DNA of 64,000 nt from Zoroaster sp. YZ-2022 (lineage: Eukaryota; Echinodermata; Asteroidea; Forcipulatida; Zoroasteridae). A program made the translations under genes and the position numbers. The notes beneath the pieces were generated by a model. It searched no databases and was not told the DNA's origin. It saw only the letters and a list, made by a program, of their open reading frames with translations. The stretch spans positions 13,776,060 through 13,840,059 of the forward strand of contig CM055823.1 in the NCBI GenBank assembly GCA_029582265.1, given 5' to 3'. Positions 7,882-37,263 of the stretch are shown piece by piece; the first letter of the stretch is position 1, and each line of letters opens with the position of its first letter.

Positions 7882-8762
7882 TGCGACTGGCGATTACTTC
7901 GCGCAGCTTTTCTCGCTGTGCTTCACTTAGTCTCTCTCCAATGCTTATTCGAGACATCAACTGCTGGACGTCATCTGAAGAGTGGTCTGATTCTTTCCCT
8001 GTTTCTATCTGTATTTCTTGTCCTGTTGCATAAAGGGTCTCACTGCTGTATTCTGGGACTGCACTGCTAAATGTGGCGAATGGAGTCCTTGGGGGTAAAT
8101 ACAGGTCACTATTGCTGAAATTAGCAACTTGAATGGGTATTCTGCCGCTGCTGTCTATGGACACTAGTGTGGGAGCTACAGCAAAGCCCTTTGGGAGGTG
8201 GGTAACATCTACATCATGTTGCTCTATCAAAGCTTCGTAAACTTCATTCCTGACAGCAGGTCTTACGGAGCCTTCAATCACAAGGAGAGAATTGGCAGGG
8301 ACTAAAATTGGCTTGCGATCAGTGGTGCGAACCTTGCCTGATACTGACCGATGGAGAGTTGCACTTCTAACTTCCTCGTAGAGGGCGAGGACATGTGCCC
8401 ACTCAGCACCATCAGTCCTGCTGTGCAACGCCTTTAAGTAGTCACAGCCATCCTCAGAGCTTAACTTGTCCCGGATATCCCTGAATATGTTAGACCCAAT
8501 GACTCCTGGGACTTTCTTCTTGCGCTGTGCAATGGATGTGCCAGATGGGTCCTTCACGACGAAAACCCATATTCCTGAATGAATGGCCCAATACAGTTAC
8601 TGTCAACTCGACGTAGCCTAGGTAGGGTATTGCCAAGCCTTGGGCACCGGTGATGCTGATGAACGAGGTCACATCTACTAAGTCCTCTGGAGAAAAGTGT
8701 TCTCTGAAGAAGGATTCGGTAATTGTCGAGACCTGCGCTCCCGTGTCAAGTAGACAACGCAC
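7856..8762 (-). pseudogene. Gypsy pol: aspartic protease region and linker
   Basis: Two overlapping minus frames cover this stretch (8490-8762 and 7856-8557). The upstream one starts with CLLDTGAQVSTI, the D-T/S-G catalytic motif of retropepsins, followed by beta-strand sequence and YLGYVELTV. The downstream one has the second half of the fold (LVIEGSVRP, an FAVAPTLV-type strand) and a linker toward RT. The protease would cleave the Gag-Pol polyprotein. The change of frame at about 8490-8557 separates the protease from the linker, a disabling break unless programmed frameshifting is involved. Confidence 0.8.
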
Positions 8763-8881
8763 TTCCGATGTCCCTAGCTGGACAATAGCTTCTGGGCAGT
8801 GCCCTACCGCCCTCTTATAGATGGAGCCTCCGTCAATTGACTCTAATAGGCCTGCCGTATGGCTCTCGATGACAGACCTAT

Positions 8882-9946
8882 CTAGTTTAACTGTTGCTGG
8901 GGGGTCGATTGCTGAAGGCCGAACTGCTGGTCTGGAGACTGCTGGGGGACAAACTCCTGGGGGACAAACTGCTGGGGCTGGAAAATGGCACCATTGTTGC
9001 CTTGAAGGGGTCGTCTTGCCGAAGTAGAGTATCCACGAGCTGAGGATGATGGGGGATGAGGGCAGTCTCGTTTGAGGTGCTGCGTGGAATGGCAGTTATA
9101 GCACCGACGTGGGCCTCGCTGATTCCATCGGCTGCTTTGTGCCTGGCTCATCGCCTTGATGAGAGTGTCAATCTGCTGTTGTTGTTTCTGCAACTGTCCC
9201 GCTTGTTTCTCTAGCAGGGACTGGATGACACTGGCACTCTTTACAGCTTCTACCTCGTGGATGTTCGCCTCCTTTCGGTTGCTTTGGCTGCAACCCAGCC
9301 ACTCGATAGCCCAGTCTCGAACATCGAAGGTCAAATTGGGTGACTCAATATTCAGACGCCGCAGTTCCCGCCTCAGACTTTCATCCCGAACGGCTTCAGC
9401 CAGCCGTCCCTTCAACGTTGTCTCCCGAGCTGTGCCGATAGAGTCATCCAGCTTTTGTATTCTATCGAATAACTCCACCAACTTTAGCGAGCACGTGAGA
9501 AGGTCTTCTCCAGACCATTGGTGGTAAGCAAAGAACTTCTTCTGAAGTTGTAGAAGAGTGTCTCCATCTCCAAAAACTTTAAGCAAGACCCTGAATATTG
9601 CCTCAGGGTCTCCTTTTACTTCCTCGCCTCTCCCAAGGATTTCTTGACGAGCTTGGCCAGCTAGATGGTCAAGGATGAAGGCGCTGCTATCTTCCTTACT
9701 CAACTGCCTAGCACCTAGCTGGCCCTTCACATCGCTCACCCACTCTACTATGGATAGGTCACCTGGCTTTTCTGGGGTGCCCCTAAACCGGTCAAGCCTC
9801 CTCCCAGCAGCAACATAGATCTGCTTTGTAGCTGCTGGTGGGGTGGTGCTGCTTACGGCTTTTTGTTTTTCCTGTTCCGCCATGAAAGCCAGCTTCATAT
9901 CCTCCAGCTCCTCTCGCAGCTTCCGTATGTCATCAACACCCATCAT
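8882..9946 (-). CDS. Gypsy Gag polyprotein
   Basis: An uninterrupted 354-codon frame. It has an N-terminal coiled-coil-like stretch (residues about 5-30), then an alpha-helical capsid-like region (about 45-225), a short glutamine-rich helix, and one CCHC zinc knuckle, CYNCHSTQHLKRDC, near residue 285. The tail is rich in Q, P and S with repeated FVPQ-type units. Gag packages the element RNA into particles; the knuckle binds RNA. It is the first gene after the primer-binding site, as expected, and the protease frame follows about 120 bp downstream. MMGVDD is the first in-frame methionine. This is the only element gene here that looks fully open. Confidence 0.9.
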   Translation of the reverse strand: MMGVDDIRKLREELEDMKLAFMAEQEKQKAVSSTTPPAATKQIYVAAGRRLDRFRGTPEKPGDLSIVEWVSDVKGQLGARQLSKEDSSAFILDHLAGQARQEILGRGEEVKGDPEAIFRVLLKVFGDGDTLLQLQKKFFAYHQWSGEDLLTCSLKLVELFDRIQKLDDSIGTARETTLKGRLAEAVRDESLRRELRRLNIESPNLTFDVRDWAIEWLGCSQSNRKEANIHEVEAVKSASVIQSLLEKQAGQLQKQQQQIDTLIKAMSQAQSSRWNQRGPRRCYNCHSTQHLKRDCPHPPSSSARGYSTSARRPLQGNNGAIFQPQQFVPQEFVPQQSPDQQFGLQQSTPQQQLN

Positions 9947-10037
9947 TTTTGCAGCTCTTTTATGCTTTCTAGGTCATGGGGTATGCAGGCTGCGTCACCT
10001 CCTCCTAGACTGGGGGTTGCAGTATTTAGTACACCAT

Positions 10038-10053
10038 CCTGTCTACGACGCCA
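10038..10053 (-). other. Candidate primer-binding site
   Basis: Three bases inside the upstream LTR the minus strand reads TGGCGTCGTAGACAGG. A TGG start is the complement of a tRNA CCA end, and the position is right. I could not assign the matching tRNA with confidence; a serine-type acceptor is only a loose match. Confidence 0.5.
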
Positions 10054-11043
10054 AAATGTGACAGTTCAAAATGAATATATCACGACACGGATGGTGTACA
10101 TTTTAAGCGGTCTTGTTCTTTTAATGGTGTGACTGCATTTACTCAAAAGAAAAAAAACCTGAAAAGATACAAAATACAATTCCTGTATAAATATAATGAA
10201 TTGGAAAATACTAATAAAAATAATAAATGTGAACTCTCTTTACACAGTGTACTTTAACTCAAAAGTTAAGTTATTGTCAAATAAGAAAATACAAGGCATG
10301 GGAATGTTTTAACTTGCAAAGTCAAATAAAGAAACAAATAACTATGTATAGCACAAGTGTAATTGAATGACATCTATCAATGTGAAGTTAATAAATCACA
10401 GACTTGACTCAGTCTATTCATCATTCAAATAATGTAAGAAAATTAAGTGTGAATATAATAATAGGAAATATAATCAAAAAGATAACTATTAACTAGATAA
10501 ATTTAAAGATAAAAATAATCAGTCAAATGATGAAGAATAAGAAATTATGTAAACAGCAATGGATAAAACTAATAAGTAACTAAAATAAAATACAAGTATT
10601 TTAGGCTAAGTTGTTATTGACCCTATGCTCTAGAAAGTTAAATACCCAAGAGAACAATAAAACTGGTGGTTATTCCTAGTGGTTGCTAATGGAATGAAAA
10701 ATAGAAATGATCACATATCAATTGCTGGAGAAAACTTAAATAAGAACAACCATACTATTATCAATAACAAAGAAATATCGATGGACAGAATTGTGTGCAA
10801 ACCTATAGGCAATTGATAATTAGATTTCATATGCTCTAGAAACACTCAGCTAATAGTCTAGGGACTTGATACTCCAGAAACGAAATGAGCATGCCATAAT
10901 AAATCAAGGTTTCTTGCGCCACTACCAAGTACCAATAACCTTCAACCTTTCACTTGCAGCTGAGGACAACCACATGTTATTATGGCTAGGTCACTCCTAT
11001 AGTAGATACATGTACACTATTTTAAGTGGTGGTATAAGGTTAA

Positions 11044-12055
11044 AGATGGACTTCAACGGAATATATTACAGTGTTTTGATGCTGTTAGGCTTACAAGAAG
11101 TGTGTAATGATTACTTCTATATGATTAAAATTCAAATAAAGTAATTTCTTAATGTAAAAAAAAAATCATTTTGATCAGCATTTCACTATCTAGAAAAGTC
11201 GTGTTTAGAAAAGCCGAACTCATGAATAATTCATATCGTAGTTGTGACGTACAATCAAGGACTGGCATTCGCTGCTTATGCCCACATGTCATGAGTGTTC
11301 CCCAGCAAAGTGCATTAAAAAGCGGCGATATGCGAAGCGAACTCCCAGTCGTACTCACTTGCCTTCTCTCGATATTTGGCGCTTTCAAAGTTGGAACAGA
11401 GCCTTGCTTCAAGCGATATTTGGTATCCAAACCAAAACTTTCTTTCACTTGACTGGAAGAATCTCTACAGTCGCCCGTAAAATGGGCTGAACAAATCAAC
11501 GACCATTTTGTCAACGTGAAATCCTTTCTGTATTGTTCACGAACTTCACCCACTCCTTGGAAGCCGCCGGATTCATGGAAATCGGAAAAACTAACATCTG
11601 GATTCTTGGTGGCACTTCTTGTACATCCACCAACAGCACATGTGCTAGGCATTATGCCGTCTTACACAAAATCGTCAAAGCAGGGAAAAAATCATGTGTA
11701 TCAGCTTCGAGCAAGTAAAATCCCATTGCCAAACACAAAGACAAAACGGCTTCCTTTATTTATGCCCCAGATAGTACGTCACACTTACGCTGGTTTACGT
11801 GGCCGCTGGTATTTCACCGTTCATTTCGTATTGTATTTCTATGGGCCTTTGCTGGGAACCATGAAAGCGCGCAGCCAACGGCGAGAAAAAACCACTCGCT
11901 CAGAAATCTAAGAAGGGGGGCTATTTTTTACAATCAAAATTAAACAAAATAACGGGGAATAAAACCATCGTACTGATAATGAAATAATAACTAAACACAA
12001 CATAAACAAGACTCAGGAGACGATTTAGTGTACGAGCTCTCGTTGAAGTCCATCT
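11044..12055. mobile_element. TTAA-flanked THAP-carrying DNA transposon fragment (Kolobok-like)
   Basis: The insertion is exact. The partner LTR has GGTTAAAGAAAAG, while here TTAA occurs on both sides (11040-11043 and 12056-12059). The ends are a perfect 15 bp inverted repeat, AGATGGACTTCAACG. TTAA duplications occur in piggyBac and Kolobok transposons; a THAP domain is typical of Kolobok (and P) but not of piggyBac. At 1012 bp it is far too short for a full transposase, so it is a deletion derivative that kept the DNA-binding end. Confidence 0.82.
11149..11652 (-). CDS. THAP domain protein, truncated transposase end
   Basis: The first 90 or so residues form a THAP zinc finger: MPSTCAVGGC at the start supplies the first cysteine pair, W (about residue 50) is the invariant tryptophan, and ICSAHF gives the closing C and H. 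YRLKQGSVPT matches the family's C-terminal AVPT-type box. THAP domains bind DNA, often transposon termini. After about residue 95 the similarity stops and the remaining sequence is not recognisable. The expected RNase H-like catalytic domain is absent. It may be inert, or it may act as a DNA-binding protein that competes with full transposases. Confidence 0.75.
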   Translation of the reverse strand: MPSTCAVGGCTRSATKNPDVSFSDFHESGGFQGVGEVREQYRKDFTLTKWSLICSAHFTGDCRDSSSQVKESFGLDTKYRLKQGSVPTLKAPNIERRQVSTTGSSLRISPLFNALCWGTLMTCGHKQRMPVLDCTSQLRYELFMSSAFLNTTFLDSEMLIKMIFFLH

Positions 12056-12741
12056 TTAAAGAAAAGCAGTTTGATCACAGTATTAAATTTATGAATGTTT
12101 CCAAACTAAATGTACTGTATAAAATACTAAACTATGGTGAATATTCTAAAATAGATCAGATAATATAAACATGCATCCATCCTTAAAGGAGCACACTCAT
12201 ACAAAGTGATCAAGTAAATTAAAAGGAACTAAAGAAAGTGAACAAATACTCCTAAAAATGTATAAATGAAGACAATCTTATTAAAAGTAACTAAAGAGAA
12301 TAAAAGCTAAAAAGTAATTCATTTTGTAAATGAACTCAATGTCATTTAAACAAATCAGCAAATCAGTTAAACAAATAATTCACTTTCCACCGACTAAACT
12401 ACTGAGTAAACCAATTAATTTTCTGACTAGATGTCAAAATAATACTCAGAAAACACTAATTAATAACTTGATAATAAGTGTGATAAAAGAACAAATTAAA
12501 TGAAAGTACTCTCACCCCAGTCTAATCAGTGGGAAGCCATTATGAGGTGCAATGAAGAACTTGAATATTAAGTGTACACTGTATACATATGGACAGCACA
12601 ATATTTTGATGATGTGGCCCAAACAGAAGCTGTGGTGGTTATGACCACAAGACAAAGCAACTTCTTAGATGGTATCAAACTTTTAAGGGTCAAGCGAGGG
12701 CGCAATATATAAAATAGGGTATGTCAATTCTACCTGTCACA

Positions 12742-13305
12742 CTAGGATGGCCACTGCATCCCACTGATACCCTAGGATGGCCACTGCATCCCACTGATAC
12801 CATAGGATGGCCACTGCACCCCACTGATACCCTAGGATGGCCACTGCACCCCACTGTTACCCTAGGATGGCCACTGCATCCCCACTGATACCCTAGGATG
12901 GCCACTGCATCCCACTGATACCCTAGGATGGCCACTGCATCCCACTGATACCATAGGATGGCCACTGCATCCCACTGATACCATAGGATGGCCACTGCAT
13001 CCCACTGATACCCTAGGATGGCCACTGCATCCCCACTGATACCCTAGGATGGCCACTGCATCCCCACTGATACCCTAGGATGGCCACTGCACCCCACTGA
13101 TACCCTAGGATGGCCACTGCATCCCACTGATACCCTAGGATGGCCATTGCATCCCCACTGATACCCTAGGATGGCCACTGCACCCTACTGATACCCTAGG
13201 AAGGCCACTGATACCCTAGGATGGCCATTGCATCCCCACTGATACCCTAGGATGGCCACTGCATCCCCACTGATACCCTAGGAAGGCCACTGCCTCCCTA
13301 CTGTT
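12742..13305. repeat. Minisatellite, right part
   Basis: This is the continuation of the array at 2325-2764, again 28-30 bp units with TAGGATGGCCACTGC, about 20 copies, some shortened near 13200. It begins exactly at the outer edge of the gypsy LTR. Long open frames on the minus strand here (12690-13025) merely translate the repeat and are not genes. Confidence 0.9.
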
Positions 13306-13771
13306 CTTAACAAATAGTATCCAAAACGTGTTTATTTATTCACAGAGATTTAAATGTGATGTTATAATTAATTGAATTATTATGAAAAATATATGAAGAG
13401 TTTCATAGCAAAACGCTCATATATCTATTTGGCTGAGAGGATATATTGCAGATTGCAGAGAAGCTGGCATGGCGATTATCACGGTTTGGAATAAAACGTG
13501 TATAATGATTGAGTTTATATAGTGGTTATGTCGCATTTGTGTTTGCGAACAATGTGTTAGTGGTGTTGGTGCAAAAGTTTTAAATATGGCATTTATCAAG
13601 TTTTGCTATGAAACTCTTCACATGTATATGTGATTTCATATATTAACTAATACAAACTTAATAGAAGTTTTTGACATTTTAAACACATATGAATAAAGCA
13701 CAAATGTTTAAACTGTGTATGCAAAAAATTATACACAAACAGCTCTTGAGTTTTGAATTGATTAAATATAA
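13306..13771. other. 3' flank of the RAG1-like gene, contains a foldback
   Basis: AT-rich and without coding signal. It holds the inverted-repeat element at 13394-13620. Because the gene above ends at 13772 on the minus strand, its 3' UTR probably lies here; I did not see a single clear polyadenylation signal. Confidence 0.4.
13394..13620. mobile_element. Short inverted-repeat MITE, 227 bp
   Basis: A perfect 21 bp inverted repeat starts TGAAGAGTTTCATAGC at 13394 and closes at 13600-13620. The interior is AT-rich with no ORF. No convincing target duplication could be read, so the superfamily is unknown. It lies just past the stop codon of the RAG1-like gene and could be part of its 3' UTR. 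Confidence 0.7.
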
Positions 13772-14076
13772 TCAAAGGCTAGGTTTGTTTGAAAAGGCTG
13801 CTGGTGGTGCATGAACTGGGCTAGTCATAACCCAGTGTGACTTGATGACAGACTTTAGAATATCTATATCTTTTGTCAGACCGCGGACATCACGTCGAAT
13901 GTTGTTGAAACTGGCATGTACAGACTCCCCTCCATGTTCACCATGGAATCCGAAACCAAAATGCCACTTTCGTATCCAGGGAATAGTGTGGTCCTCAAGA
14001 AGATGCATCTTAGGTGGAACTGACTCAGATGGGAATTCAGCCCGAAAGTATGCCACGTAGGTCTTGATTGAATCAT
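13772..14076 (-). CDS. RAG1-like gene, exon 8 (residues 1052-1152)
   Basis: The acceptor is TTTTTAG, and the frame ends at 13772. MHLLEDHTIPWIRKW and FGFHGEHGGESVHASFNNI are the conserved C-terminal blocks of the family; E1102 in GGES is the proposed third catalytic residue. The tail is short and proline-containing. Confidence 0.85.
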
Positions 14077-17000
14077 CTAAAAAACAACAAACAAATAAGT
14101 GTTAAATAGCAGTCTCAAAAATAACAATCTCTCAAAAATGATGTTCTCTCAAACCCTAGCTGGATGTGAGTAATCTACAGCAAATCCAACTCATACATAC
14201 TGCAGCCATGCTCTACATGTACAAATATACATATGCAAAACCCTAAAATACTTCCTGCAACTTCCTACATATACGTGCTTTCTGACCATGTCCTAATAAA
14301 GCATCACCATTTCAACCCAACCATTATCTGGATGTCAATACAGTGACACATGATCAATACAGTGACACATGATCAATAAGTACATGATCAATAAGTACAC
14401 CATCACTGTACACAATCCTTTTAGAGCATTTTGTAAAGAGGAAACACCACTTCACAGTTCATAATTTTAATCTCGAAGTAATACCAGAAAAATGTACAGA
14501 ATATTCCAATATGCATAATTGACTATCTTGAGTAGATAAGTTTCCTAATGGTGATAGTACCTTGGTGACAAAATACATGTAATGTTAAATGACCAGGTTA
14601 ATATCTCTAGCTAATACATGTTATATCCCTAACCCATAACACCTAAGTACAGTTATTGATTTGAATACAGTTAATTGAACATAGTATGTTAATAATTAAT
14701 CTTATTTGAATGTTTCTGACATTTGTAAGGGTCAAGTGCACGTATACATGTAGGTGGGGTACCAATGTTTGTGAAATGTTGATGCAACTCATTCTACAAT
14801 ACTGGGAAAGATGATACATGTAAAAGATGGAGAACAAACATTTTGTTAAATAAGGAAGTTTTTGTCGACCATATACTATACTGGGCTTTGTTTGTAGTTA
14901 TATTGGTACATGTATTATAGATCAGTTGAATGACTATGGTGGAGATGACTTACCATGCTGGATCAAACATTTCACTAAATTGTGCACATGATGAAATACC
15001 CACTGAAATGAATCTTTCAAATATGAATTTAATTATATAATTTTTTTTTAAATGAATATTGTAACTTCCCTTTAATTGAGTTAACATTGTGATATTATGT
15101 ATAGTTAAAACTTGTAGCTTTGCATGGTGAGGATGATAAGTAAGACTAATTGCGGTGACACCATGTGGAATCTCAATTGAGTAGTAATTAGTTCTGAAAA
15201 GAACTGGAGGTACAACTCGACGTAACGTCGAGTTGTACCTCCAGTTCTTTTCAGAACTAATTACTACTCAATTGAGATTCCACATGGTGTCACCGCAATT
15301 AGTCTTACTTATGTATAGTTACCTAATGCGTCTATAGCTTTATCATCTAAGAATGATGCAGTGTTGTAAATCACGTGACAATCACCAAACAGACTAAACA
15401 GTTTGGCATATTTGTCAGCAATAATCCTGGCTTGAGGAACTAGAGAAGGACACACTTCTTGAGTCTTGATGACCACTGCATCAGTAAGTAACTTGATATT
15501 CTCTTTCTGTAAAACAAAATGTAAAACAAAATGTAAAACATTATTTCTGTCATGCAACTATTGTCAAGGACTACTCTATTTGATTAAATAATTTGTGAGG
15601 GGTTTACAATACACAAATCTATATTTGACAATAGTCCCTGCCAACCTTGAAAATACTTGCACACATACATGTAGTCTTGTAACAAGACATAATCTATTTG
15701 CAATGCACACAGCACGATATGAAGACGTTCACATAACGTTTGGGTTCAAGACTAATGACTAACCAGACTAGGAATGATGAAAAATGAACAAAACTGTTTT
15801 CTCCAAACTACATGTGGATATCCGGTTGGTGACCTCCTTTCAACATAAACTCTGCCTACTTTACACGGAATGGTTTCAAAATTGTTTATGTACAAAAATG
15901 CATTGCCCACTTTTTATTTTTAGAATTAAAGAAAAAATCTTCAAGTGTTATGGTAAATCGTGAAATCGCAATGTTTTGCAAAATGGGTCCCATTTCAGCA
16001 ATAGAATCTTATTGAAATCGTAAAAAACATGAAATAAAGGTTCTCAGCCGATGTAATTACATGTATACAGTCAATTTTTCTTGCCTTGGAGCCAAAATTT
16101 TAAAGTGTGTGTGTGTGTGTACTGTCAGTACGTGCGCATATGACACATCTACCTATGACATGTACTGCAAGAGCAGTATCTTACAATGTCAAATTATGAT
16201 CTTGTTCACTCCAAAAGTGGATATCACACCACACACATATACATGTAAGAGTGGAGAATACTAGAAACTTTGACCGACAAAATGTCAGATAGTAACAGTC
16301 AGGTACAATGTAAACTTATTGCTCAATCCCTGATGTTTGACTGACTGACTGGATAGGTGTATAGTTACCTTACAACATTTATGTACATGGTTCCCACAAA
16401 AACTTTTGCCATCATACGCTTGACGATGCACCCTGAATCCCTGTAGTGTTATGTCCAGTTGATTAGATAGAGGACCCTGTCCTGGTTTTAATGAAGCATT
16501 ATCACGTAGAGCCTTTGCTTCCGCTAACTGAAAAAAATACACAAGTTTAAAGGGACTTTATCAACCAACAAAATTCATTGAAGATCTGGCACTCAGTATA
16601 CATTGCTGAGGCACATCGATGAAGGGAAAAATTGTGTCATTAACCCTCCTATTATCAGTGTAGTTCTTCACAAATTGGACCCATACTTCAAAATGTCTCA
16701 ACTGGGACATATTGTGGTACGCACTTTCTTATCTAATGATTAATGGCATAGCCCAAGGCTCTTCAGAGAGATGAGGTAAACTGAAGCAGCCACCTGCTTT
16801 GTTTCATTGCAAGATTAACTTGAAATAAACCAGTGCAGTAACTTGCGGTATACATGTACACGTACTGTGTGAGGATCAGAACAGTTTGGTTTTTGTCCCA
16901 TACCCAGGGGCATTTTGGGGTATCCATGTACCATTCTTCTGTACAGTATGCAATATTTTGAGGCATGCACACAAAAAGCATTGTGTACTTAGCAGTTCTT

Positions 17001-20000
17001 TTTTTTGCAGCATTTTGGAGACTGCATGTATACAAGGGTTAATCAATAAAACCAATGCAAGAATTAATTGCATTAATAAAAGCTATAATAAGTTATTTAC
17101 CAGCTGGTGTTGTTGTTGCATGAGGTCAGTCATAGAAGTGAGGTAATCCAACATGTCCTTACTTCCTTCATCAGATATCAAGATAATGTCTGTAAGCTCT
17201 TCATCCATCAGTTGGAATTCCTCATCTAATGCCTCTGCCTGTTGATCCAAATGCCTGGCTTGCTTCAACACAGAAATAAGCTCAAGGAATCTTGAATTAT
17301 GTACTTGTGTTTCTTCCTGGTCTTTTTGTGCAAGAACAGCTGCCACTTGCATGTCAAGGTCATGACATGCTCCCTCAAAGCTGTTGAAGTGTTTGAGGTA
17401 CAACCCAAGGCTGATATGAAGCCCAGGTGGGCACACCTGTCAAATCATTTCATATTCAATATTTCATTATTTTTTATTATCTTTATCTTACTCTATTGTT
17501 AATTATGACAAACATGTATCAAGTTTGAAAAAATTATATTTATTTTGAAAACAAATTTATGTCAATAATCACCTGTGTCAGTGGAATTCTAAACATTGGC
17601 TCATCTATAACATTGTTGAAGTATTTGGCCTTGGAGAGTTTTTTACCATCAACTTTGAATCTCTGAAGGTCATGGTCCAACGTTTGTAGAGTTCTCATTT
17701 GAGACGGTGGTCTTTGCTCATGGGACAAAAGCATATCTTTCTTCTTGATATCACAGTACAGACAGCAGTGTTGTCCTATACAAGATGGTACACAATCAAA
17801 TGTTGAAGAGATTGCATATATTTGGTATTATTTAATAATTCTTTTGCCAATATTTGGGTGATTTTTTTTTTTCACTGATGGGTGATTTTTTTTATGGGCA
17901 ACATCAGGAAGGCAATTTTTAAATGTATGAATTTACGAGGACCAATTGTTTTCCCCCATTGGACCTTCGGCTTTTCTGAACAAAAATTAAACGTATGTTC
18001 ACCAACCTATTTAAACGTATGTTGTTTAATTTCCTTATGACATAACTTCTTTAAAATGTTAGGTCAATTATCAATATTTGCTTAAAGCCCCACTTTAAAG
18101 AGAATTCAACATTTTATAAATGTGGTAGAACAAATACTGTAAAGCCTTAAAGTTGCTTGTTCTTTGCTCATGGCAAATTGTATGTTTAATACAATGTTGA
18201 TTTCTTTGAAACTACAAATGCTAGATGAAAAAAGTTATGAATTTATCAAGCTAGCCTAAAAAATTAATAAAATTACAGTCCTCAAAAGTTAGGCGGGTAG
18301 TCAACTTCCACTCTTTCAGCCTTCCACAAAAACAGTTTCACATCCTCAATCATGTAGATTCTTTATACATTACAAGACAAAATGTTTTAAAGTCCGATTA
18401 GAATGGGGATTGTATTCGGCAAAGTTAATAAGTTTTATAAATAAAGGAAATGTCACTTATTCCGAATTTAGAATCATTTCACTTTCATATATCTTTTTAC
18501 ATGGGGGAAAAAAAAGAGGAAACCCATGCCTGTTCCTAAGTGCCAATAAGCAGCTTACGAAAACCCTGGAGTGACGTCACAATGATATGCATTGACCTCG
18601 GACACATCATAGTTGGGAGACGCATCGGGAGTGCTCGGTTTCATTTTGATTTCAGTCTATTTTAGATTAATTCTTCAAGTATTTATTGAGATTTAGATTT
18701 ACACATCATTGTCTAATGCCACTACATTGTGTTATAGGTGGTTGGACACGCGATTGGGTAAACAATCCCTACATATTTGTGTAGTTCCACAAAACTGTGG
18801 TGACTCGACGTGGAAAACAACAACATTATTGTGGATTAATCTGTCATTTTTGCATTGGTAAATTACACCAAGCCTGTAGTACAATAGTATGAATAAATGA
18901 ATGACGAGGTAAGTATTTTTTTAATACAATTTCTTTGAATTTACTTTTCCCCCATTTTCCAAACAATTTAAATATTTTAAGATATCCTTTCATGGTGTAT
19001 TTTGTTTTCAATGTGTATAGATACTTGAACAGGTACATCAGTATGATAAAACAGTCTCTACCAAGCAGTTTAGATATTAAACAGACTCTATGGTTAGCTA
19101 ATTTTAGCCATAAATTGTTCATGGAGAGATACAAAGGTACATCTGTACAATCTGTTGATAATTTTAGAATAGAATTTTCTTTTATATGTAATTTGTACAT
19201 TGCTGTGTTCTTTTTCCATTTTATTTCATTTTAAGTTCATGTTCTTTTGATGTGGGAAAATTTGAGAATTTTTTTTAAGGTCTAAGTGTATTTATTATAA
19301 TATACACTGTACATGTAAATGGTTTACTCAGTGTAAGATTTTATATTATTTACATACTCTAAATGCAATTTTACCAAATAGTGGCTTAAATATTAATGCC
19401 AGTAATTGCAATATGAAGGTGATGGCACACACAACATGGTACAGTAATTGTATGTAAAGGTCTACAGTATATTCCATTCCATTTTTTCTTTGTTTAACAG
19501 GTATTCAATCAGTACATCCCACGTACTGGACCTTCAGAGGGTATTCAATGCGAGCTATGACGTTGCTAAATATGCTACAAGCCACCTTGTATGAGAGTTA
19601 TGATGATGCAGTCGTGGTTTAAAGGGACAGTATCGTCATGATCAGAGCAGACTTTCAACAGGGCATGGAATCACTGTCCTAGTTAAAGATTTATACAGTG
19701 ACTGTAAATTACCGGCTCATTTATGCAGCAGCAAAGGTAATGACCTGATCATGTGGGGTATTATTTTCAGTCACCGAGTTAATCTAAAATTATGCGCTCC
19801 GCTTCCATGCTCTGTTGATCGCGACAATGCCTTTAAGAGGCATAAATTATTGAAATGTGATTATTCAATTATTCAAACAAGGACTTTCAATCTATAATAT
19901 AGATTGCATGAGGAAATATAAGTTTTGTTTCCAATTTAGACACAATCTACATGCCAGACAAATATTCATAGTTTTTTAGTAAGTTGATGTAAATGTACAT

Positions 20001-23000
20001 GTACATACAGTACATGTACACAGTACATGCCATTCCAGTATTCCGTTTGTAAAATAAATACACAACAGAATCCAAATATAAAGTAAACTTGTTTGATGTG
20101 AAACAAAAATCATTTGAAAATTTACATATTTAAACAGATGCGTCATTGGAGTCCCTTTACAAGTTGAACATAATATGTGAACTGTCAAATTCTGGCATAT
20201 TTAACAAGCAAGTCTAAACGAAATGGGTCTCACTTTGTTAACAATGTAAATAACGCACATATTTGTGTGCGTGTGTAGGGGTAAGTGTAAGTACCAGACC
20301 TAGTCAGTGGGATCGTCTCCCAACTATGGCGTCACACGGAAGCATCGGCTTGGGCATCGTGACCTTTGTTTTTCAGAATCGTGAAAACGGGGCTTTAGAA
20401 ATGGTGCTAATTTTAGCTTTTTTTTTCAGTTTTAAAATTCTAAAAAAGGTATTAAATCATTAATAAGGACATATAAGCTACCGAATACCGTAAGCAGGTT
20501 GAACGCAAATTTCACGTTCTAACCAGACTTTAAGGTAATTTGGTGTTAATTATGAAACAAAATTTAATCGATACATGTATACTGTATGTTGATTACCAGA
20601 TGCGCCAGTGATTCCATACACTCTGCAAAGATACTCATAGTCTCCAAACATAAACATCCTGATGGTATGATTCTTCCATGTACTTGACTGCAGTTCAGCA
20701 ACTTGCTGACGAAAGCGAAGCAATCCAATCTTGAGGTTATCACTGGTATCTCTTGCTTCAAAGGCACATATAACAATGGTGTGTCGAAGGGAATTAGGGC
20801 GATCAACATTACCAATTTGAATCATTTGTTTGAATGTACCACCACCCTTGTCCCCTCCAATTTTGACCCAAATCTCATTATATGGGATGTTTCCTCCATG
20901 CCATGTCAACTGTTGATACCTGAAAACAAAATAAAAAACAATAAATTGCAATCAGTTAAATATCAAAGCAATTTCCACATAAGAATATAGGCCTGCCACC
21001 ACATTGTAAACAAGACAGTAACCACATATAAAACTAATTTGCAGAATATGGCATAAAATTAATTGGATTGAGAGTCGACACAATCATGACCGACAACACA
21101 ATAAGTAAGGGACCTTAGCCAATCTCACTAACTCCACCCGGAACAATCTACAATCTTATTACCCCCAAAAATTCTCGTCTTCACTATTTTTTACTCCAAG
21201 TCTCCTACAAGACCTTTAGAAAAATCTTGACAATAGAAGCCAGCCACACCAGTTTGATGTAACCACTTTGCCTGGCTGGGCATGGCTGGGCATGGCTGGC
21301 CCAATGTTAATCCGTCCACACAATAGAAAGGCTTAATTGGCAATTCAAAAGGTCTAATCCCTCCAGGAACTCTGTTGTCCATGGTTTAGGGAGTTAACAA
21401 TAGAAGTTTTTTGAGGACTGCAGGTTCATCACTGCTTTCCAGGTGAGTCTCACGGTTTTTGCGGGCGAGATTGGCGAGGGTCCCTAACCTAACCATTACC
21501 TCATTGAATGATATTACTCTCTTTACTCATTTATTCTTACATGTCATATTCATCAAGTTGTTGATTGACTTTGGCTATGAGGGACTTCACACCTACACAG
21601 GGAGCCTGCTTGATGCCAATTCCTCCATTCACTTCAGGGAAGGAAAATGGAAGATTCTCAGCAATCATGTTATCAGCAATAACCTCTTCTTGCTGTTTAC
21701 GCATTTGACCCTCTCCTTCTGTCAAAATGTTGTAGCCCTTCAACCATTTTTTCAATTTCCTGATGCGTTTCCAAGAGATTCCTAGATGTGTCTTGGCTGC
21801 TAAGAGCTGCTTAGTGGGAATCGTAATAATATTGAGATCAAGTTGTTTCAAGATACTCTCTAGATCACATCGCAGGTTAACAAGCTTATATTCATCTACA
21901 TGTTGCTCATCTTTAGCATCCATACTAAGATGACCACGGAATTTATCTAATATTTTGGAGCGACATCGGAGGGTTCTTTGGCTGGCATCACGACTGCTTA
22001 TCCGAGGCTTGGGAGCATGAAGTGTTGTCATAGGCTATACCAAAATGACAAAAAGAACATATATTGACAACAAATCTACTAATAATTATTGTTTATGAAG
22101 CAAAATTGTACAAAATGCATTGAAGACCTGATTAAAAAATATTGGTCTCATTAATGAAACGGCCTCATTTTTGAGAAGAAACTCACCGATCCACCAGTCA
22201 TATACTCGGCAGTGAAACCATCTTTAGATTGGGATAACTTGGTCCTCAAGATGTGTGTTCCAAGTTCTTCCATTTGTGGAGTCAAAGGGGCAGTCAGTGG
22301 ACGCTGTAGCATCCGAGTTACCTCACTTGGCACTGAGTAGTCATGATCATTTGTAACAGATCTTAAACTATTAATGGGTACACTCTGGGGAAGCAATGGC
22401 ACAGTCAAGGGGCAAAATACCAATGGAACCTGTGTTGATGGCTGACATGTAACAGTTGAATTCAAGATAAAGGGATTCAATGGCGTTGTCGGATGAATCT
22501 GTGGAGTCAAAGGGGCAGTCAGTGGACGCTGTAGCATCCGAGTTACCTCACTTGGCACTGAGTAGTCATGATCATTTGTAACAGATCTTAAACTATTAAT
22601 GGGTACACTCTGGGGAAGCAAAGGCACAGTCAAGGGGCAAAATACCAATGGAACCTGTGTTGATGGCTGACATGTAACAGTTGAATTCAAGATAAAGGGA
22701 TTCAATGGCGTTGTCGGATGAATCTGTGGTATGTGAACAGCTTCACTAGGTGCAGGTTGAGAGGTAGATGCACTGATGTCATCACATGTAACAGTTGAAT
22801 TCAAGGGTTCGAAAATGGGAGTCAAAGTCGTGGTCGGACAACATTGTGGTATCTGAACATCCTCACTAGAAAGTTGGGATGTTGGTGTGTTGTTTTGAAT
22901 GGAACTGAAACTTACAGAATGAATAATTGGACAAACGTGTGATTTCATATCCCCTATGGTAACATGTACCTTACATGATGTACATTTCATTACTAGTGAC

Positions 23001-23641
23001 AAAAATAAAGAGGCAAAATAACCTCTTGGAGCAGTGACATGCTTGAAGTGCATGTTTGCATGGCAGGAGGGACAAGGGACAGTAACACGGCCTGATGCTT
23101 GAAAGTTATCCAACAAGCACTTACGACAAAATAAATGCATGCAGGGAGTCTCAACAGCATTGTCAAGCAATTGATTGCAAAGTTGACATTGTACAGACTC
23201 TGTGTTTGACACTGGCTTAAACCGATGGATCTCATCCTTGGAGACTGTTGGGGATAGAGGGAGACTATTAAAGTGGTCAACATATGCAGGAGATCCTCTG
23301 GGCCGGCCACATGTTGTTAGATGCTTTCTTTTCCTACCAGGCTGAGATTGTTCACAGAATTTTGAACAGACAAAGCAGTTACCTCTTCTACGATGCTCTG
23401 GCCAAACAGGGGCAGTTTTCTTTGTTGGAATATAAAAGAAACAGTAGCAGGAATGGCACATGTGTGGAGGGTGAATGTTGATGTCATCTTCAGAGACATC
23501 AATTGCAAATGTTTTCAGAATTTTGTCAATATAATCACTGCATCGCTTAACACATTTACCCTGTTTCATCTGTTGTGATGTTGTGCATCGCTCTCCACAT
23601 AATCTACATAACCTTTTGAGATTTTCTACGTGCTGGTCCAT
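13772..23641 (-). CDS. RAG1-N-terminus-like RING protein with DDE-type nuclease domain (8 exons, intact)
   Basis: Eight minus-strand exons with GT-AG junctions join in phase to 1153 codons including the stop, with no internal stop. Residues 10-100 have cysteine and histidine pairs (LCRLCGERC, HMCHSC, CFVC) spaced like the RAG1 central zinc region. Residues 152-193 form a C3HC4 RING and 220-237 a zinc finger, in the RAG1 order. A Ser/Thr/Pro linker with a 75-residue tandem duplication follows. The second half has KIGGDKGGG (D673), FGDYEYL (D743) with a following CCLYC, a charged helical segment, and GEHGGESVHASF (E1102), a plausible RNase H-like catalytic triad. The closest precedent I know is the N-RAG-TP family reported from Aplysia. 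The RAG1 catalytic core itself is absent. It may be a mobile-element transposase or a domesticated host gene; bounding terminal repeats were not found. Confidence 0.85.
15136..15312. repeat. Perfect palindrome, 88 bp arms
   Basis: The two arms are exact reverse complements around the single unpaired base at 15224. Each arm starts ATAAGTAAGACTAATT and ends CTCGACGT at the centre. There is no spacer, so the DNA can extrude as a long cruciform, and the intron RNA would form a very long hairpin next to the exon 7 donor. Confidence 0.95.
15323..15506 (-). CDS. RAG1-like gene, exon 7 (residues 991-1052)
   Basis: The acceptor is TTTTACAG and the donor GTAACT at 15322-15317. It encodes a helical stretch without a recognised motif, and ends in phase 1. 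The donor lies about ten bases from a perfect 177 bp palindrome in the next intron. Confidence 0.8.
16369..16527 (-). CDS. RAG1-like gene, exon 6 (residues 938-990)
   Basis: The acceptor is TTTTTTCAG, the donor GTAACT. It contains HRQAYDGKSFCGNHVHKCCK, with clustered C and H residues that could coordinate zinc within the insertion domain. Confidence 0.8.
17101..17436 (-). CDS. RAG1-like gene, exon 5 (residues 826-937)
   Basis: The acceptor is TTGACAG, the donor GTAAAT. VCPPGLHISLGLYLKHF begins the exon and is followed by a long charged helical stretch rich in E, Q and L. It corresponds to the insertion region between the second and third catalytic residues. Confidence 0.82.
17573..17775 (-). 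CDS. RAG1-like gene, exon 4 (residues 758-825)
   Basis: The acceptor is GTATAG, the donor GTGATT, phase 0. It opens with QHCCLYCD, a C-x2-C pair just after the second aspartate. This placement matches the C(2)C motif seen after the second D in several cut-and-paste transposase superfamilies. Confidence 0.82.
17776..20596. other. Long intron of the RAG1-like gene
   Basis: This 2.8 kb intron separates exons 3 and 4. It contains the TTAA-flanked MITE at 19623-19832 and otherwise AT-rich sequence. A short plus-strand ORF at 18935-19234 has no recognisable similarity. Confidence 0.6.
19623..19832. mobile_element. TTAA-flanked MITE, 210 bp
   Basis: TTAA occurs at 19619-19622 and 19833-19836. The ends are diverged inverted repeats, AGGGACAGTATCG against AGGCATTGTCGCG. 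Internal segments (GGGCATGGAATC, CTCATTTATGCAGC, a CATGTGGGGTATTATTTTCAG block) recur at 28026-28165 and 2125-2235. Confidence 0.65.
20597..20919 (-). CDS. RAG1-like gene, exon 3 (residues 650-758)
   Basis: The acceptor is TTTTCAG and the donor GTAATC. It encodes WVKIGGDKGGG with D673, IVICAFEARD, and FMFGDYEYLCRVYGITGASG with D743. These blocks are the most conserved part of a family seen in many marine invertebrate proteins, and I take the aspartates as the first two catalytic residues of an RNase H-like fold. The final glycine codon is completed by exon 4. Confidence 0.85.
21541..22034 (-). CDS. RAG1-like gene, exon 2 (residues 486-650)
   Basis: The acceptor is GTATAG before 22034 and the donor GTAAGA after 21541 (phase 2). 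The product is basic and helical, with IPTKQLLAAKTHLGISWKRIRKLKKWLKG resembling a helix-turn-helix segment that could bind DNA. It lies between the linker and the first catalytic aspartate, where transposases often place a DNA-binding region. Confidence 0.82.
22187..23641 (-). CDS. RAG1-like gene, exon 1 (residues 1-485)
   Basis: The start is the ATG at 23641; an in-frame TGA lies just upstream, so no longer N-terminus is possible. An acceptor-like CCACAG ends at 23663, suggesting an untranslated 5' exon further up. The exon encodes the zinc-binding region, the RING (C152, C155, C167, H169, C172, C175, C190, C193), a C2HC-type finger at 220-237 and the repeated linker. It ends in phase 0 at a GTGAGT donor (22186-22181). 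RAG1's RING has E3 ubiquitin ligase activity; that is only an expectation here. Confidence 0.88.
22275..22724 (-). repeat. In-frame 225 bp tandem duplication in exon 1
   Basis: Two consecutive copies of 225 bp begin TGTGGAGTCAAAGG at 22275 and 22500 and differ by about one base. The repeat adds 75 codons to the Ser/Thr/Pro linker without changing frame. Such near-identity implies a recent event, possibly polymorphic. Confidence 0.9.
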
Positions 23642-23664
23642 TGTTCAATTTCTCAACAATGTCT

Positions 23665-25465
23665 GTGGAGCAAGCACAAACAAAATAAAAGGAAAAATAA
23701 CAAATTAACACTCCTACTACTACTACAAGGGTCAAAATCAGTCAAAATGTTGAAATACTTCTACTAGTGCTCTTAAAAGTCGAACGCTGTCAAACCTGAC
23801 GTGTAGTAAGTACACGTACAGGTCAAAATGAGTCGACCATTTTCGACTGGTAAAAGCATTGTCTGGTATTGTTCAAGGTGTTCAAAAGGATATTAAAAAC
23901 CAGTCAAAAATGCCCCTGTGTGCACATTTGGGTCAACAGTCAAAACAGGCAGTTGACTGGTTTTGACCTCTGTAGCTACTTGCCACTAAAGTGCAGCTAT
24001 AGTAGGATGGTTAAAACAAACAAATCTCTCAAGTTCCTTTATTTTGTTGATGTGTTATAAAAACAACAACTAAATTATTAAACAGTCTAAATTGTTTTGT
24101 ATTACATTTTACACAAATTTAAAAATATGTGTGCTTATTTATTGTGCTTATTTGATTTCATTTATTTCTCTTTGTAAAGCTCTTGTCTTCTGTAAACTTC
24201 TAATCCATGCCAATGACCAACTAGCAATGGCAAACATTTTACATTAATGACACTATTAGCAGACAGAAACTAAATGTAACATTCAAAATAAGTCATGTTA
24301 TGAAGACCAGACCTAATTCAAGTGGGGTATTGCCTCTGTGTATACTTGACAATTAGTAGTTGATATTTTAATTCATTGTTTATCCTAAGAGACCTTCATT
24401 GTACCAGTAATTTTCACTTTATACAATTGTACAATGTACAAGAACTTACAAACTTGCAAATTGAATAAAACATGAAAATCTACACATTTGGTAATTTTCA
24501 ACTATCAGTTAAGACTTACGTGTTAGAAAATTGGTGAGTATAATCCTCCAGCACACTTGAATCATCCATGTTGATTGGTCAATGGCTGAGCTATTAATAA
24601 ACTACATGTATAGAATAGCACGGTAGCAAGTATCGGGTTTGCTGTTATCAGTTTTAAAAATAGCAAATCTACATTCTTTACATGTCTTATTCTTTATTAC
24701 AGATATGTACAGCTTGTGTTTTCAAAACAAAAACAATATAAATAAATTGGTGTACATCCTATTTTTGTTCGACCAAAGCTCCAAAAATATGCTCTCATGT
24801 TTTACCAATTTAAAGCAGAGGGCATCGTATGGAGAGTTTTTGGTGATCTGCATTTGTCAATTGATTATGATTTAGGCCTTATCTTTGCATCTTTGTACAT
24901 ACTCATCTACATGTACATGTACATGTGTATTTGCTTTGTTTATAAATGATCAAGTTTGCTGGAAGATAATGTCACATACATGCTTGTGGAACGACAAGTA
25001 TAACATATCATATAGATTGGTGAAATTCTTGCGTCGGGAGATAAACAATTGATTTAATTTTGCCCTACACCGACGTGTGTATAGCACTGTATGCTCAGTG
25101 CTTTCCGAGTGTCTGTGAAAACATATCATTCTGCCTTGTGGTCATCACAGGAAGCTGAATCACTTTCCATGTTCAACTTTTTAATTTGTACATCAAATTA
25201 TGTACATCATACATGTATATACTGAATGCAGCAAACCCCTCAACACCCAGCCCCAAACCTCTAGTATTTGTTTTTTCAAAACCACTGTTGTACATGTACA
25301 GTGTACCTTACCTTAAAGTCTTTTAAAAGCTCAAAAATTCTAAACTTCATACATTATTATATCTTACGAAATAAAATAAATTTCAAAAATGTATAGTATG
25401 GACTCTTACAGTGTACCCATGTACAGTATTCATTATTACAAGAATGCATACATGATCAAATATTT
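23665..25465. other. Upstream flank of the RAG1-like gene
   Basis: No coding exon can be supported. A GTAAGT donor-like site at about 24519-24524, preceded on the minus strand by a short ATG-started frame, could be an untranslated first exon. Runs of ACATGTAC occur near 24905 and 25295. Confidence 0.4.
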
Positions 25466-26300
25466 TCCATGAGTACGAGTACACCTACATTTCACGAGTA
25501 CACCTACATTTCACGAGTACGAGTACACCTACATTTCACGAGTACGAGTACACCTACATTTCACGAGTACGAGTACACCTACATTTCACGAGTACGAGTA
25601 CACCTACATTCCACGAGTACGAGTACACCTACATTCCACGAGTACGAGTACACCTACATTTCATGAGTACGAGTACACCTACATTCCATGAGTACGAGTA
25701 CACCTACATTTCATGAGTACGAGTACACCTACATTTCATGAGTACGAGTACACCTACATTTCATGAGTACGAGTACACCTACATTTCATGAGTACGAGTA
25801 CACCTACATTTCATGAGTACGAGTACACCTACATTTCATGAGTACGAGTACACCTACATTTCATGAGTACGAGTACACCTACATTTCATGAGTACGAGTA
25901 CACCTACATTTCATGAGTACGAGTACACCTACATTTCATGAGTACGAGTACACCTACATTCCATGAGTACGAGTACACCTACATTCCATGAGTACGAGTA
26001 TACCTACATTTCATGAGTATGAGTACACCTACATTTCATGAGTACGAGTACACCTACATTTCATGAGTACGAGTACACCTACATTTCATGAGTATGAGTA
26101 CACCTACATTTCATGAGTACGAGTACACCTACATTTCATGAGTACGAGTACACCTACATTCCATGAGTACGAGTACACCTACATTCCATGAGTACGAGTA
26201 TACCTACATTTCATGAGTATGAGTACACCTACATTTCATGAGTATGAGTACACCTACATTTCATGAGTATGAGTACACCTACATTTCATGAGTATGAGTA
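25466..26300. repeat. 24 bp minisatellite
   Basis: About 34 tandem copies of a 24 bp unit, CATGAGTACGAGTACACCTACATTT with small variants (CACGAG, ATTCC, GAGTATGAG). Variants occur in blocks, suggesting higher-order duplication. Open frames across it only translate the repeat. Confidence 0.95.
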
Positions 26301-26638
26301 CCAAATAAAATGTACTAAAGACCTTCCACTCAGATCTATACATTACACACATGTACAGTGTACATGTACAGTGTACATGTGCATGTACCTGTGCTGTGGT
26401 TGTAGCTAAAATATAACTTTACATTTTACATCCATTCTTATTGATGTCACAACATGTTTAAAGTGTAGTTTAGTAATATCACACGACCAACACATGAGCT
26501 TTATGGAAAGAATTCAGTTACTCCTCAAAAATGATTGCAAATACTGACAAACATGAGTAATTTACTTGCAAGTTTGAAAACTAACTAGTTTTATGATGAA
26601 TGCAAGGAATTCAACAGTGATACAAATTTAAATCCTAC

Positions 26639-27133
26639 CTTTTGGAAGCTGTTGAATCAGTTGAAACACTCTGCTCTTTTCAATTAATTGTTTGGACTCA
26701 AAGAAATGTAGTGCAGGAGGAAATTGGTCACCATGAACAGCTGCAGCAAACTCCTCTTTCTTTGCAACCATAAGAATCTGATTTACTTTTAACTCCTTAG
26801 CATTGAGTTTAAGAGTACCACCAGTTCTTTGGGCAGATTCTTCTTGTAGGAATGATTTCCTATTATTAAGGTATGTCTGAAGAATAAAAAAATAACATGT
26901 ATGTGCAGACTGTTTATCTGTGGTTTTCATCTTAATATTGAAAGGAGTTAATTGACTAAACATATTGTTTTAATTAAAGTTCTTGTTCAATACCAATATG
27001 TTACACTTTTATGTTAAAATTACGTATATGAAGGGTAGAAGAGGAGATAAGTTACCTCAAAAGATTCTTGTGATGTATATGTGAACACTACCACCAGGCA
27101 GAAAGCTGCTAACATCCACTTTGTAACAGACAT
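26639..27133 (-). CDS. ADGF/ADA2-type adenosine deaminase, first two coding exons
   Basis: Exon 1 (27056-27133) encodes MSVTKWMLAAFCLVVVF, a signal peptide, and ends at a GTAACT donor. Exon 2 (26639-26876, acceptor TTCAG, donor GTAGG) encodes about 80 residues ending FPPALHFFESKQLIEKSRVFQLIQQLPK, with the next glycine split by the intron. This is the N-terminal (A_deaminase_N) block of secreted adenosine deaminase growth factors, where PKG leads into the metal-binding HxH. Those enzymes deaminate extracellular adenosine. The following catalytic exons would be expected at lower coordinates but were not found in this window, so either they lie off the left edge with the RAG1-like gene inside an intron, or this is a truncated copy. 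Confidence 0.72.
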
Positions 27134-28025
27134 TACTGAACACAGCTTTGTACACATGTACAAGAACCTACATGTAGGCGAGTTGATCTGTAGAAATACA
27201 TGTAAGTAAACTCTTTAATTTAAAGCTATAAAGTTTGGATGTTAAGCTGGAGCCTAGGGGTCCCATGTTAAATAATTACAGTAATGACAAATAACGAACA
27301 GGAACCCTGCTAAATGCAACATTACAATAATACAAGTGTGACACTGCAACAACATCCATTAGCTAGAACAATGGTTTTTTTGCACTCTGCTGAGGTCAAC
27401 CATATTAAACATAATGTTGTATCTTGTTGCAAGTTTTTACTGTGACTGTAATGGTTTTTCCATTACCAGACCAATGATTGTATACCAACTTTATCCCAAA
27501 AGCTTTCAGATAATAATTTGTTAATTTGATAACTGGTAATTATCAAAATAGTAGGCTCTTTTGAAGTTTTTCTAGTGTCTCTGGACATGTACACGTATGC
27601 ATCCAGTAATAAGGGAATAAAAGTTTGTTGTAGAATGTACAGGTACATATTGATCATTTGACTTCTTTACACTTTCCGTGACCTGTGTAAATGTGTTTGT
27701 ACATTTCATACTAAACATAACATCAAGAATTTTTTTTTAATTTTCAGATGAATAAGATTTGAGATGCAATGTTAGTGCCTTATTAAAAATAAATCAAATT
27801 AATAATGTTTCTGCTGATATCTCAATATACACGTACATGTACATGTACATACATGTATATCAGATTTGATGGTTTCTTGTCATAGACCAACTGGTGTGCA
27901 TTTTGTGCCCAGCGCAGTTTGACCTTTGGGGCTATTTTGTAAACAATGTGACGTCATATACATGTACACATGGTATAAACTGTGTATGATTGCTGCTATT
28001 TGGGCTGAATAAACACATTGAACTT
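27134..28025. other. Upstream flank of the ADGF exons
   Basis: AT-rich with no supported gene. It contains ACATGTAC palindromic runs near 27830-27860 and a TGACGTCA-like site near 27950. A promoter for the ADGF exons would lie here, but no specific element can be defended. Confidence 0.4.
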
Positions 28026-28165
28026 GTTAAAGGGCCAATATTGTCACCATCAACAGGGCATGGAATCAGAGTGCAAATTTTTGATTAACTCAGTTACTGA
28101 AAAAAATACCCCACATGATAAGGTCATGCTGCATAAATGAACCAGTGATTCAGTCACTGTGTTCA
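28026..28165. repeat. Interspersed repeat (AGGGACA-type family) copy
   Basis: TTAA followed by AGGGCCAATATTGTCACC, then CAACAGGGCATGGAATC, CCACATGATAAGG and GCTGCATAAATGA. These blocks match 19623-19832 (inverted) and 2125-2235. The far terminus is not clear. Confidence 0.6.
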
Positions 28166-28399
28166 ATAGGGAAGGAAATTAAACAACTACACAGTATACA
28201 TACATGTACTTTTCTTGTGTGATGAGTATGAAACACTATTTTCTGTTTCAGTTCCGTTTTATTTTGTGAAGAGAAGTAACTACCATTAAAACATCTACAC
28301 TGTAAAGAGTTTACATGTAGTTACACTATGTACATTGTAGAGTACATGTACATGTACATGTGTATGTAAAGAGAAAAATCACATTACATTTACAAACAC

Positions 28400-28566
28400 T
28401 GTATAAACAGTTCATTATTCAGTACGTGTACATTACTTCCTGTTATTCAGTACGTGTACATTACTTCCTGTTATTCAGTAGTGTACATTATTTCCTGTTA
28501 TCAGTATGTGTACATTATTTCCTATTCTTTACAAGATACTACAGTATCTTGTAAAGAACAGGAAAT
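28400..28566. repeat. Direct repeats ending in a 50 bp palindrome
   Basis: Units of about 28 bp with TTCAGTACGTGTACATTA and CTTCCTGTTA are repeated three to four times from 28415. The last unit runs into an almost perfect 50 bp palindrome at 28517-28566 (centre ATACTACAGTAT). Confidence 0.8.
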
Positions 28567-28932
28567 AAATTAAATTAAATAATACAATTACACTTACTCA
28601 TCATATAAAATAATGTATGTCAAATATGAAAAAGTTATTTTACAAGTTTACTCGCGTATACATGTAGGTGCAGATTGATCATTGATCTTTGAAGAATAAA
28701 TTATTGGGTAATTCTATATTAGAGTATTCTAATTTTATTACTTACAGTAGTTTACAAATTTTCCAGGAGCTGAGAAGAGTTTTCAAGCAGGAAAAAAAAT
28801 AAAATAAAAATCCCCTTGCCAACACCTGTCATGTACAAAAAAGGCTATGTTTTATGCCTTAATAATATAAATGAATTAAAAGGATCAAATCAATCAAAAT
28901 ATTTGACTAATGGTATTGTTTTATTGCATCAC

Positions 28933-29084
28933 AATTATTATACATGATTCCTTGGCTATAATTATTCAAAAATAAATTTTAAGTATGGAGGTTGCAACTC
29001 TGCTGAAAAAGGTACAGAGTTGCAACCTCCATACTTAAAATTTATTTTTGAATAATTATAGCCAAGGACTCATGTATAATAATT
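28933..29084. repeat. Near-perfect hairpin, 70 bp arms
   Basis: Arms at 28933-29002 and 29015-29084 are reverse complements with about one mismatch, around a 12-base loop CTGAAAAAGGTA. Each arm contains GGAGGTTGCAACTCTG near the loop. No target duplication was seen. Confidence 0.92.
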
Positions 29085-29274
29085 ACAAATGACGTTAGTC
29101 TTGTTAAATCCATGTTTACATTGATGGCTACACGTACATGTACTTCAAACTAGTGCACCAGATATTAAAATATGCAGAGCTTTCACTGGGAAAAGGGGCG
29201 ACGTGAGTAATTTCAATCAGCTAATACCAGCCTACATTGTATATGAAGTAATACAAAAATAACTACATATGTAA

Positions 29275-32277: not shown

Positions 32278-32533
32278 AATAGTAGTCGCGAATAGTAGTC
32301 GCGAATAGTAGTCGCGAATAGTTCACAACCGGGAAGTTATGCAGTGCAAAGGCAATACATTATTACTCACAATTAATCGTGAATGGTCATTATTCGCGAA
32401 TAGTTGCAGGTATTTACGCCAGCGCGATTAATCGAATACGTGTAGGTCAAAATCCGCGAATACAAGTACAATTAGCAACAACTATTCGCGAATATTCGAA
32501 TAATCGAACTATTCGCCCAGGCCTAGTCTCTAC

Positions 32534-37257: not shown

Positions 37258-37263
37258 AGGTTA

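Follow-up and report, generated by a model that had tools for sequence, protein, structure and literature searches.

A gene on the minus strand of the starfish Zoroaster sp. YZ-2022 is, judging from its sequence, very probably a Chapaev-superfamily (DUF1280) transposase gene. It lies in a stretch of 64,000 nucleotides (nt), here called the window (contig CM055823.1, positions 13,776,060 to 13,840,059). The predicted protein joins a RAG1-type N-terminus with a RING to a D-D-E core that appears to be distantly related to that of RAG1/Transib, and the copy is, on a cautious judgement, probably retained by the host. The gene runs from 23641 to 13772 and comprises eight exons and seven introns. Its 3459 nt encode 1152 amino acids (aa) and a stop, and the reading frame contains no internal stop. 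An earlier sequence-only reading had joined eight exons in phase, without a stop and with consensus splice sites, and this model holds. GT-AG boundaries are present at 7/7 introns, and tblastn of the protein against the window recovers the eight exons, with all other matches at E≥1.7.

Domain plan of the encoded protein

The N-terminal half contains zinc pairs, a C3HC4 RING, and then a CxxC finger. In a Pfam scan of the single protein, RING is matched at E=1.2e-6 and RAG1_imp_bd at E=7.5e-5, with 22.9 bits, just below the cutoff of 23.3. The best phmmer match in the PDB is RAG1, over residues 143-256 (E=4.7e-10). RAG1_imp_bd is matched individually (E≤0.1) by four of the ten sequences in profile A1, including that of the window. 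The profile itself matches RAG1 residues 102-392 with its positions 8-251 at E=3e-23. Because this match extends over the zinc region, the RING and the following finger, the N-terminus is, on profile evidence, a true RAG1 N-terminus and not a generic RING. By homology, the RING would act in ubiquitin ligation or in dimerisation, as it does in RAG1.

The second half belongs to DUF1280 (PF06918), which it matches at E=9.4e-16 with 58.5 bits against a cutoff of 25; the DUF1280 profile is matched by 10/10 A1 sequences, the window's included. D673 (in GGDKGG), D743 (in FGDYE), and E1102 (in GGES) are invariant across the ten-sequence alignment, and likewise the pairs C762-x2-C765 and H1076-x4-H1081. 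In the available part of Majorek 2014 (PMC3985635), DUF1280 is assigned to Chapaev transposases and placed in clade II together with RAG1. The core residues of the window protein also fall within the CMCT clade as defined in the accessible portion of PMC12730594.

Alignment of the core with mouse RAG1 by hhalign gives two collinear segments, in which 7/7 catalytic and zinc residues are in register (window/mouse RAG1: D673/D600, D743/D708, C762/C727, C765/C730, H1076/H937, H1081/H942, and E1102/E962). This register had been spotted by eye before hhalign was run, so that the alignment serves to verify it and does not count as a blind discovery. The score of the first segment, 34.35, exceeds those of all 300 shuffles (at most 32.71) and that of the reversed sequence (19.48), and both segments together score 64.2 against a shuffle maximum of 50.4; hhalign's own probabilities are low (12.5 and 4.4). 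With the smaller profile A2, 5/7 residues fall within the aligned parts.

Direct searches of the core are largely negative. A C-terminal stretch reaches -1.5 bits with RAG1 chain 3jbw and -2.4 with 6dbi in phmmer (not significant), the core-only profiles A3 and A2 have no RAG1 match in the PDB at E≤10, and the Pfam scan has no RAG1 recombinase family match at E≤1. Profile A1 matches the catalytic C-terminus of one RAG1L chain (6b40) at E=0.003, which was not repeated with the core-only profiles. Taken together, these results make distant homology with the RAG1/Transib core the best reading of the second half. By homology, it would be a nuclease with an RNase H fold, cleaving DNA at the ends of transposons as RAG1/Transib do. 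The RAG1-type N-terminus and the D-D-E nuclease-like second half proposed from the sequence alone are thus borne out, the former by more than a generic RING and the latter by the invariant catalytic triad. The accompanying statement that the second half is not the RAG1/Transib core is not supported, given the seven residues in register and the grouping of DUF1280 with RAG1 in the available text of PMC3985635.

The Chapaev family in Zoroaster and in other animals

Zoroaster genome: Searches of the genome with three protein parts (exon 3, exon 8, and the N-terminus; 150 candidates scored each) give at least 167, at least 150, and at least 161 matches, respectively, in which the gene itself is included and loci may count twice. 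The genome thereby holds a multicopy family of about 150 or more relatives. Ten of these were fetched, and eight of the ten are ~88-98% identical to each other in long pieces among the matches listed. The eight share a 5' end starting CAGACGCG (CAGACGCGCTGGCGCC) where the flanks part, with five different flanks among them; this end is without a counterpart in the remaining two relatives and in the window. Two loci of a distant Chapaev subfamily (L045/L046), on different chromosomes, are 98.9-99.2% identical, which points to recent activity. Since near-identical copies are present and the shared 5' end is joined to different flanks, the Chapaev family is probably mobile now or was recently so in Zoroaster.

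The window copy: The best-scoring other match in the genome, among the matches listed, has 79% aa identity in exon 3, 74% in exon 8, and 57% in the N-terminus, and short N-terminal fragments elsewhere reach 66% in the same set. No inverted repeat pair was found between the flanks 1-13771 and 23642-36500 (best E=0.52). A search for CA-starting terminal repeats with a target-site duplication yielded one chance-like match with 16 mismatches in 30, and the 5' terminus of the eight relatives was not found in 8001-31000. As no ends were found, the locus is a Chapaev transposase gene and is not shown to be a Chapaev element.

Introns: The introns of the window gene total 6411 nt, and those of five relatives measure 87-226 nt each where resolved. 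Most of intron 3 is dispersed-repeat sequence, whose matches of at least ~350 nt elsewhere in the genome are 77-91% identical (40 of 4573 candidates scored). Splice positions were compared in four of the ten fetched relatives and in a fifth, distant one. Every resolved GT-AG intron at junctions 1-6 of the four lies at offset 0, i.e., in the same codon and phase: in 3/4 relatives at junction 1, in 4/4 at junctions 3 and 4, in 3/4 at junctions 5 and 6, and in 3/4 at junction 2, where the fourth has no intron. The distant relative has introns 1, 2, 5, 6, and 7 at offset 0, and each of the seven junctions is therefore matched by at least one relative. Intron 7 is probably ancestral, because it is absent from 3/3 testable close relatives but present in the distant one; its new gain in the window gene is rejected in view of the identical position and phase there. 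Intron 7 also contains a perfect palindrome (15136-15312), whose arms of 88 nt flank a centre of 1 nt; it lies 10 nt from exon 7 and is either a foldback insertion or an assembly artefact.

Selection: Ratios of non-synonymous to synonymous substitution rates (dN/dS) and of the corresponding proportions of differences (pN/pS) were computed without the relatives C1_99341 and C1_99408, which have no N-terminus. Against 8/8 relatives computed, dN/dS is 0.136-0.177 in the core and 0.278-0.359 in the N-terminus of the window gene. Among the eight relatives themselves, pN/pS is at least 0.39 in 27/28 pairs, and in-frame stops are present in 5/8. Under neutral drift to 5% divergence, ~7 stops are expected and 0/300 simulations stay stop-free; at 2%, 2.8 stops are expected. 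The contrast, as far as these ratios tell, is one between a kept gene and mostly decaying copies. Intactness had earlier been taken as a sign of selection or of very recent mobility. The first part agrees with the core dN/dS, calculated here against same-genome relatives, while very recent mobility is not supported, because no near-identical copy is listed among the matches and the flanks gave no terminal repeats.

Other animals: A protein search with A2 returned 46 proteins. More than one protein each comes from Diadema antillarum, D. setosum, Strongylocentrotus, Lytechinus pictus, Holothuria, Antedon, Branchiostoma floridae, B. lanceolatum, Hydra, and the sponge Ephydatia, and one each from Patiria, Acanthaster, L. 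variegatus, and a Branchiostoma hybrid; some of the 46 entries are without a species name. In a tree of 35 proteins (of 49), the grouping largely follows the host group. The only starfish proteins in the A1 search (7999 candidates scored) are those of Patiria and Acanthaster, to which the core of the window protein is 70% and 67% identical, respectively. A protein of Amphiura filiformis (P0009) has the DUF1280 core with a different N-terminus and, by eye, an apparent PHD-type finger between the catalytic parts, an arrangement in which the DUF1280 core may have been recombined with other domains.

Host gene or transposon copy

Host retention is preferred because the locus has no close sibling among the matches listed, no transposon ends that could be found, and old repeat sequence in intron 3. 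The copy would have lost its transposon ends, would have stayed at its locus while repeats filled its introns, and its intact frame would be maintained by selection; a copy with such a history would most likely be a host-retained gene. Hence the window gene is regarded, with a modest leaning, as a domesticated Chapaev transposase and not as an active element. By itself, purifying selection cannot distinguish a host gene from a lineage of transposons.

An ordinary low-copy Chapaev copy that is still intact by chance is a serious competitor, though less probable; its ends would be decayed or undetected, its long introns accidental, and a host role absent. Such a copy would be at home in a genome with about 150 or more relatives, where many matches are without stops and near-identical members of another subfamily sit on two chromosomes. 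The phylogenetic evidence also leaves room for it, as the approximately unbiased (AU) test keeps a grouping with the Zoroaster relatives acceptable and no Asterias protein appears in the homology searches. It accords poorly with the lack of any sibling above 79% aa identity in exon 3 among the matches listed, with the terminal repeats that were not found, and with long introns unlike those of the five relatives examined. It also has to reconcile the old repeat sequence in intron 3 with a stop-free frame.

Several observations weigh against host retention. Synonymous divergence (dS) in the core, at 1.27-1.69, approaches saturation, a pN/pS of 0.17 is seen in one pair of relatives, and selection for transposition also brings dN/dS below 1 when transposon lineages are compared. 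One 85-nt piece of the intron 3 repeat matches at 96%, and the nearest-copy divergence gives a maximum age for the insertion, with 40 of 4573 candidates scored. The best tree joins the window gene with the Patiria and Acanthaster proteins at an ultrafast bootstrap (UFBoot) of 77 or 67. In the AU test, run on five of the ten same-genome relatives and nine of the 35 database proteins, neither alternative topology is rejected (p 0.29-0.39). Orthology with the two proteins is favoured, and a single conserved orthologue across starfish is too strong a claim in view of the UFBoot values and an AU test without rejection. The one-protein count in Patiria and Acanthaster may stem from repeat-masked annotation. 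No protein of Asterias, which belongs to the same order, was found in three homology searches, the presence of its proteome in the database being unchecked; this speaks against conservation throughout Asteroidea, unless the database lacks the protein or the gene is unannotated.

A further step, that starfish have turned a Chapaev transposase into a host gene independently of RAG1, with every domain of the RAG1 plan present and the catalytic residues intact, is tentative and on present evidence rather doubtful. Among the papers that the literature searches listed, no title or abstract opening describes a domesticated Chapaev transposase, although papers outside the library searched may exist.

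The fusion of a RAG1 N-terminus to a nuclease is not new and is the known Chapaev architecture. Chapaev DNA transposons were described by Kapitonov and Jurka 2007, as cited in the available part of Kapitonov and Koonin 2015 (PMC4411706). According to the same part, two Chapaev subgroups bear a RAG1-like Chapa zinc domain followed by a RING, and both domains are inferred to have been fused to the core already in a common ancestor. This order of Chapa zinc domain and RING is encountered in the window protein through the RAG1 N-terminal profile match and the RING match given above, and RAG1_imp_bd and DUF1280 occur together in proteins of Antedon, Branchiostoma floridae, and two unnamed or EukProt entries. 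A new fusion between a RAG1-like N-terminus and a nuclease that has no relation to the RAG1/Transib core, with a bearing on RAG1 assembly, is therefore highly improbable. Plain sequence search convincingly reaches only the N-terminus of RAG1 (-1.5 and -2.4 bits in the core, no core-profile match at E≤10), but the DUF1280-RAG1 clade, the Chapaev architecture documented in the available text of PMC4411706, the proteins with both domains in other animals, and a core in register with RAG1 speak against this fusion. The bearing on the assembly of the RAG1 N-terminus that had been attached to the gene falls away, because the fusion is already known from Chapaev and settles nothing new.

The window gene shares with Chapaev a RAG1-like zinc (Chapa) domain, a RING, a D-D-E core distantly of RAG1/Transib type, the C(2)C and H(4)H pairs, and its place in an animal genome. 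In contrast to Chapaev elements, it is without detected terminal repeats, solitary, equipped with long introns, and probably stationary. With RAG1 and RAG1L (TransibSU, ProtoRAG) it shares the whole N-terminus in the same order and counterparts of seven core residues, whereas its core is not convincingly reached by direct sequence search and its Pfam family is DUF1280. No kelch domain (RAG2 partner) was found in the eight scanned of 44 window open reading frames (ORFs) of at least 130 aa, and no RAG2-profile search was made. N-RAG-TP of Aplysia, compared by description only, is a mobile element that also has RAG1 N-terminal-like sequence. In the accessible portion of PMC8355894, it is composed entirely of this N-terminal-like part, whereas a full catalytic core follows in the window gene.

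Features of the window and biological meaning

Coordinates of the gene, its domains and its intron repeat in the window
Feature	Positions	Strand	Remarks
Exon 1	22187-23641	-	aa 1-485; RAG1-type N-terminal zinc region, RING, next finger, linker
Exon 2	21541-22034	-	starts at aa 486
Exon 3	20597-20919	-	carries catalytic Asp D673 and D743
Exon 4	17573-17775	-	zinc pair C762-x2-C765
Exon 5	17101-17436	-	gene model
Exon 6	16369-16527	-	gene model
Exon 7	15323-15506	-	gene model
Exon 8	13772-14076	-	zinc H1076-x4-H1081, catalytic E1102, stop
RAG1_imp_bd-like zinc region, aa 1-107	23321-23641	-	Pfam 22.9 bits, cutoff 23.3; profile match
C3HC4 RING, aa 149-196	23054-23197	-	Pfam, phmmer, motif inspection
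Codon of D673 (aligned to RAG1 D600)	20850-20852	-	calculated from exon model
Codon of D743 (aligned to RAG1 D708)	20640-20642	-	calculated from exon model
Codon of E1102 (aligned to RAG1 E962)	13925-13927	-	calculated from exon model
Dispersed-repeat sequence, most of intron 3 (~2.15 kb)	18386-20537		block matches elsewhere in genome

Exon 1 contains an in-frame tandem duplication of 225 nt at 22275-22729 (minus strand), whose copies are 99% identical and whose two 75-aa products have 0 amino-acid differences. A Gypsy-like long terminal repeat element occupies 2755-12741, with terminal repeats 97.7-98.9% identical between pieces. It is apparently inserted into a 30-nt tandem array, and within its right repeat sits an insertion of 1 kb that includes a THAP-domain ORF. 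Long ORFs with an rve integrase and inverted ends of ~266 nt at 96% lie at 37262-52419 and presumably represent a Maverick/Polinton-like element. The reverse transcriptase and tyrosine-recombinase ORFs at 57000-62000 belong to what we take to be a DIRS-like element, and ARAGORN calls a tRNA-Leu at 58670-58748, overlapping these ORFs. A search for RNA families gave 0 matches.

One genome displays the presumed ancestral state of RAG1, namely a population of transposases with a RAG1 N-terminus and RING on a RAG1-type core. If the window gene is retained by the host, it would parallel RAG1 domestication in nature, and it would become possible to test what the RAG1 N-terminus does outside V(D)J recombination. 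If the independent domestication of the complete domain plan were true, the gene would encode a host recombinase built like RAG1, the second of its kind, and would come from another branch of the clade that includes RAG1. It would then reside alongside well over a hundred related copies, whose ends may serve as its substrates or as targets of control.

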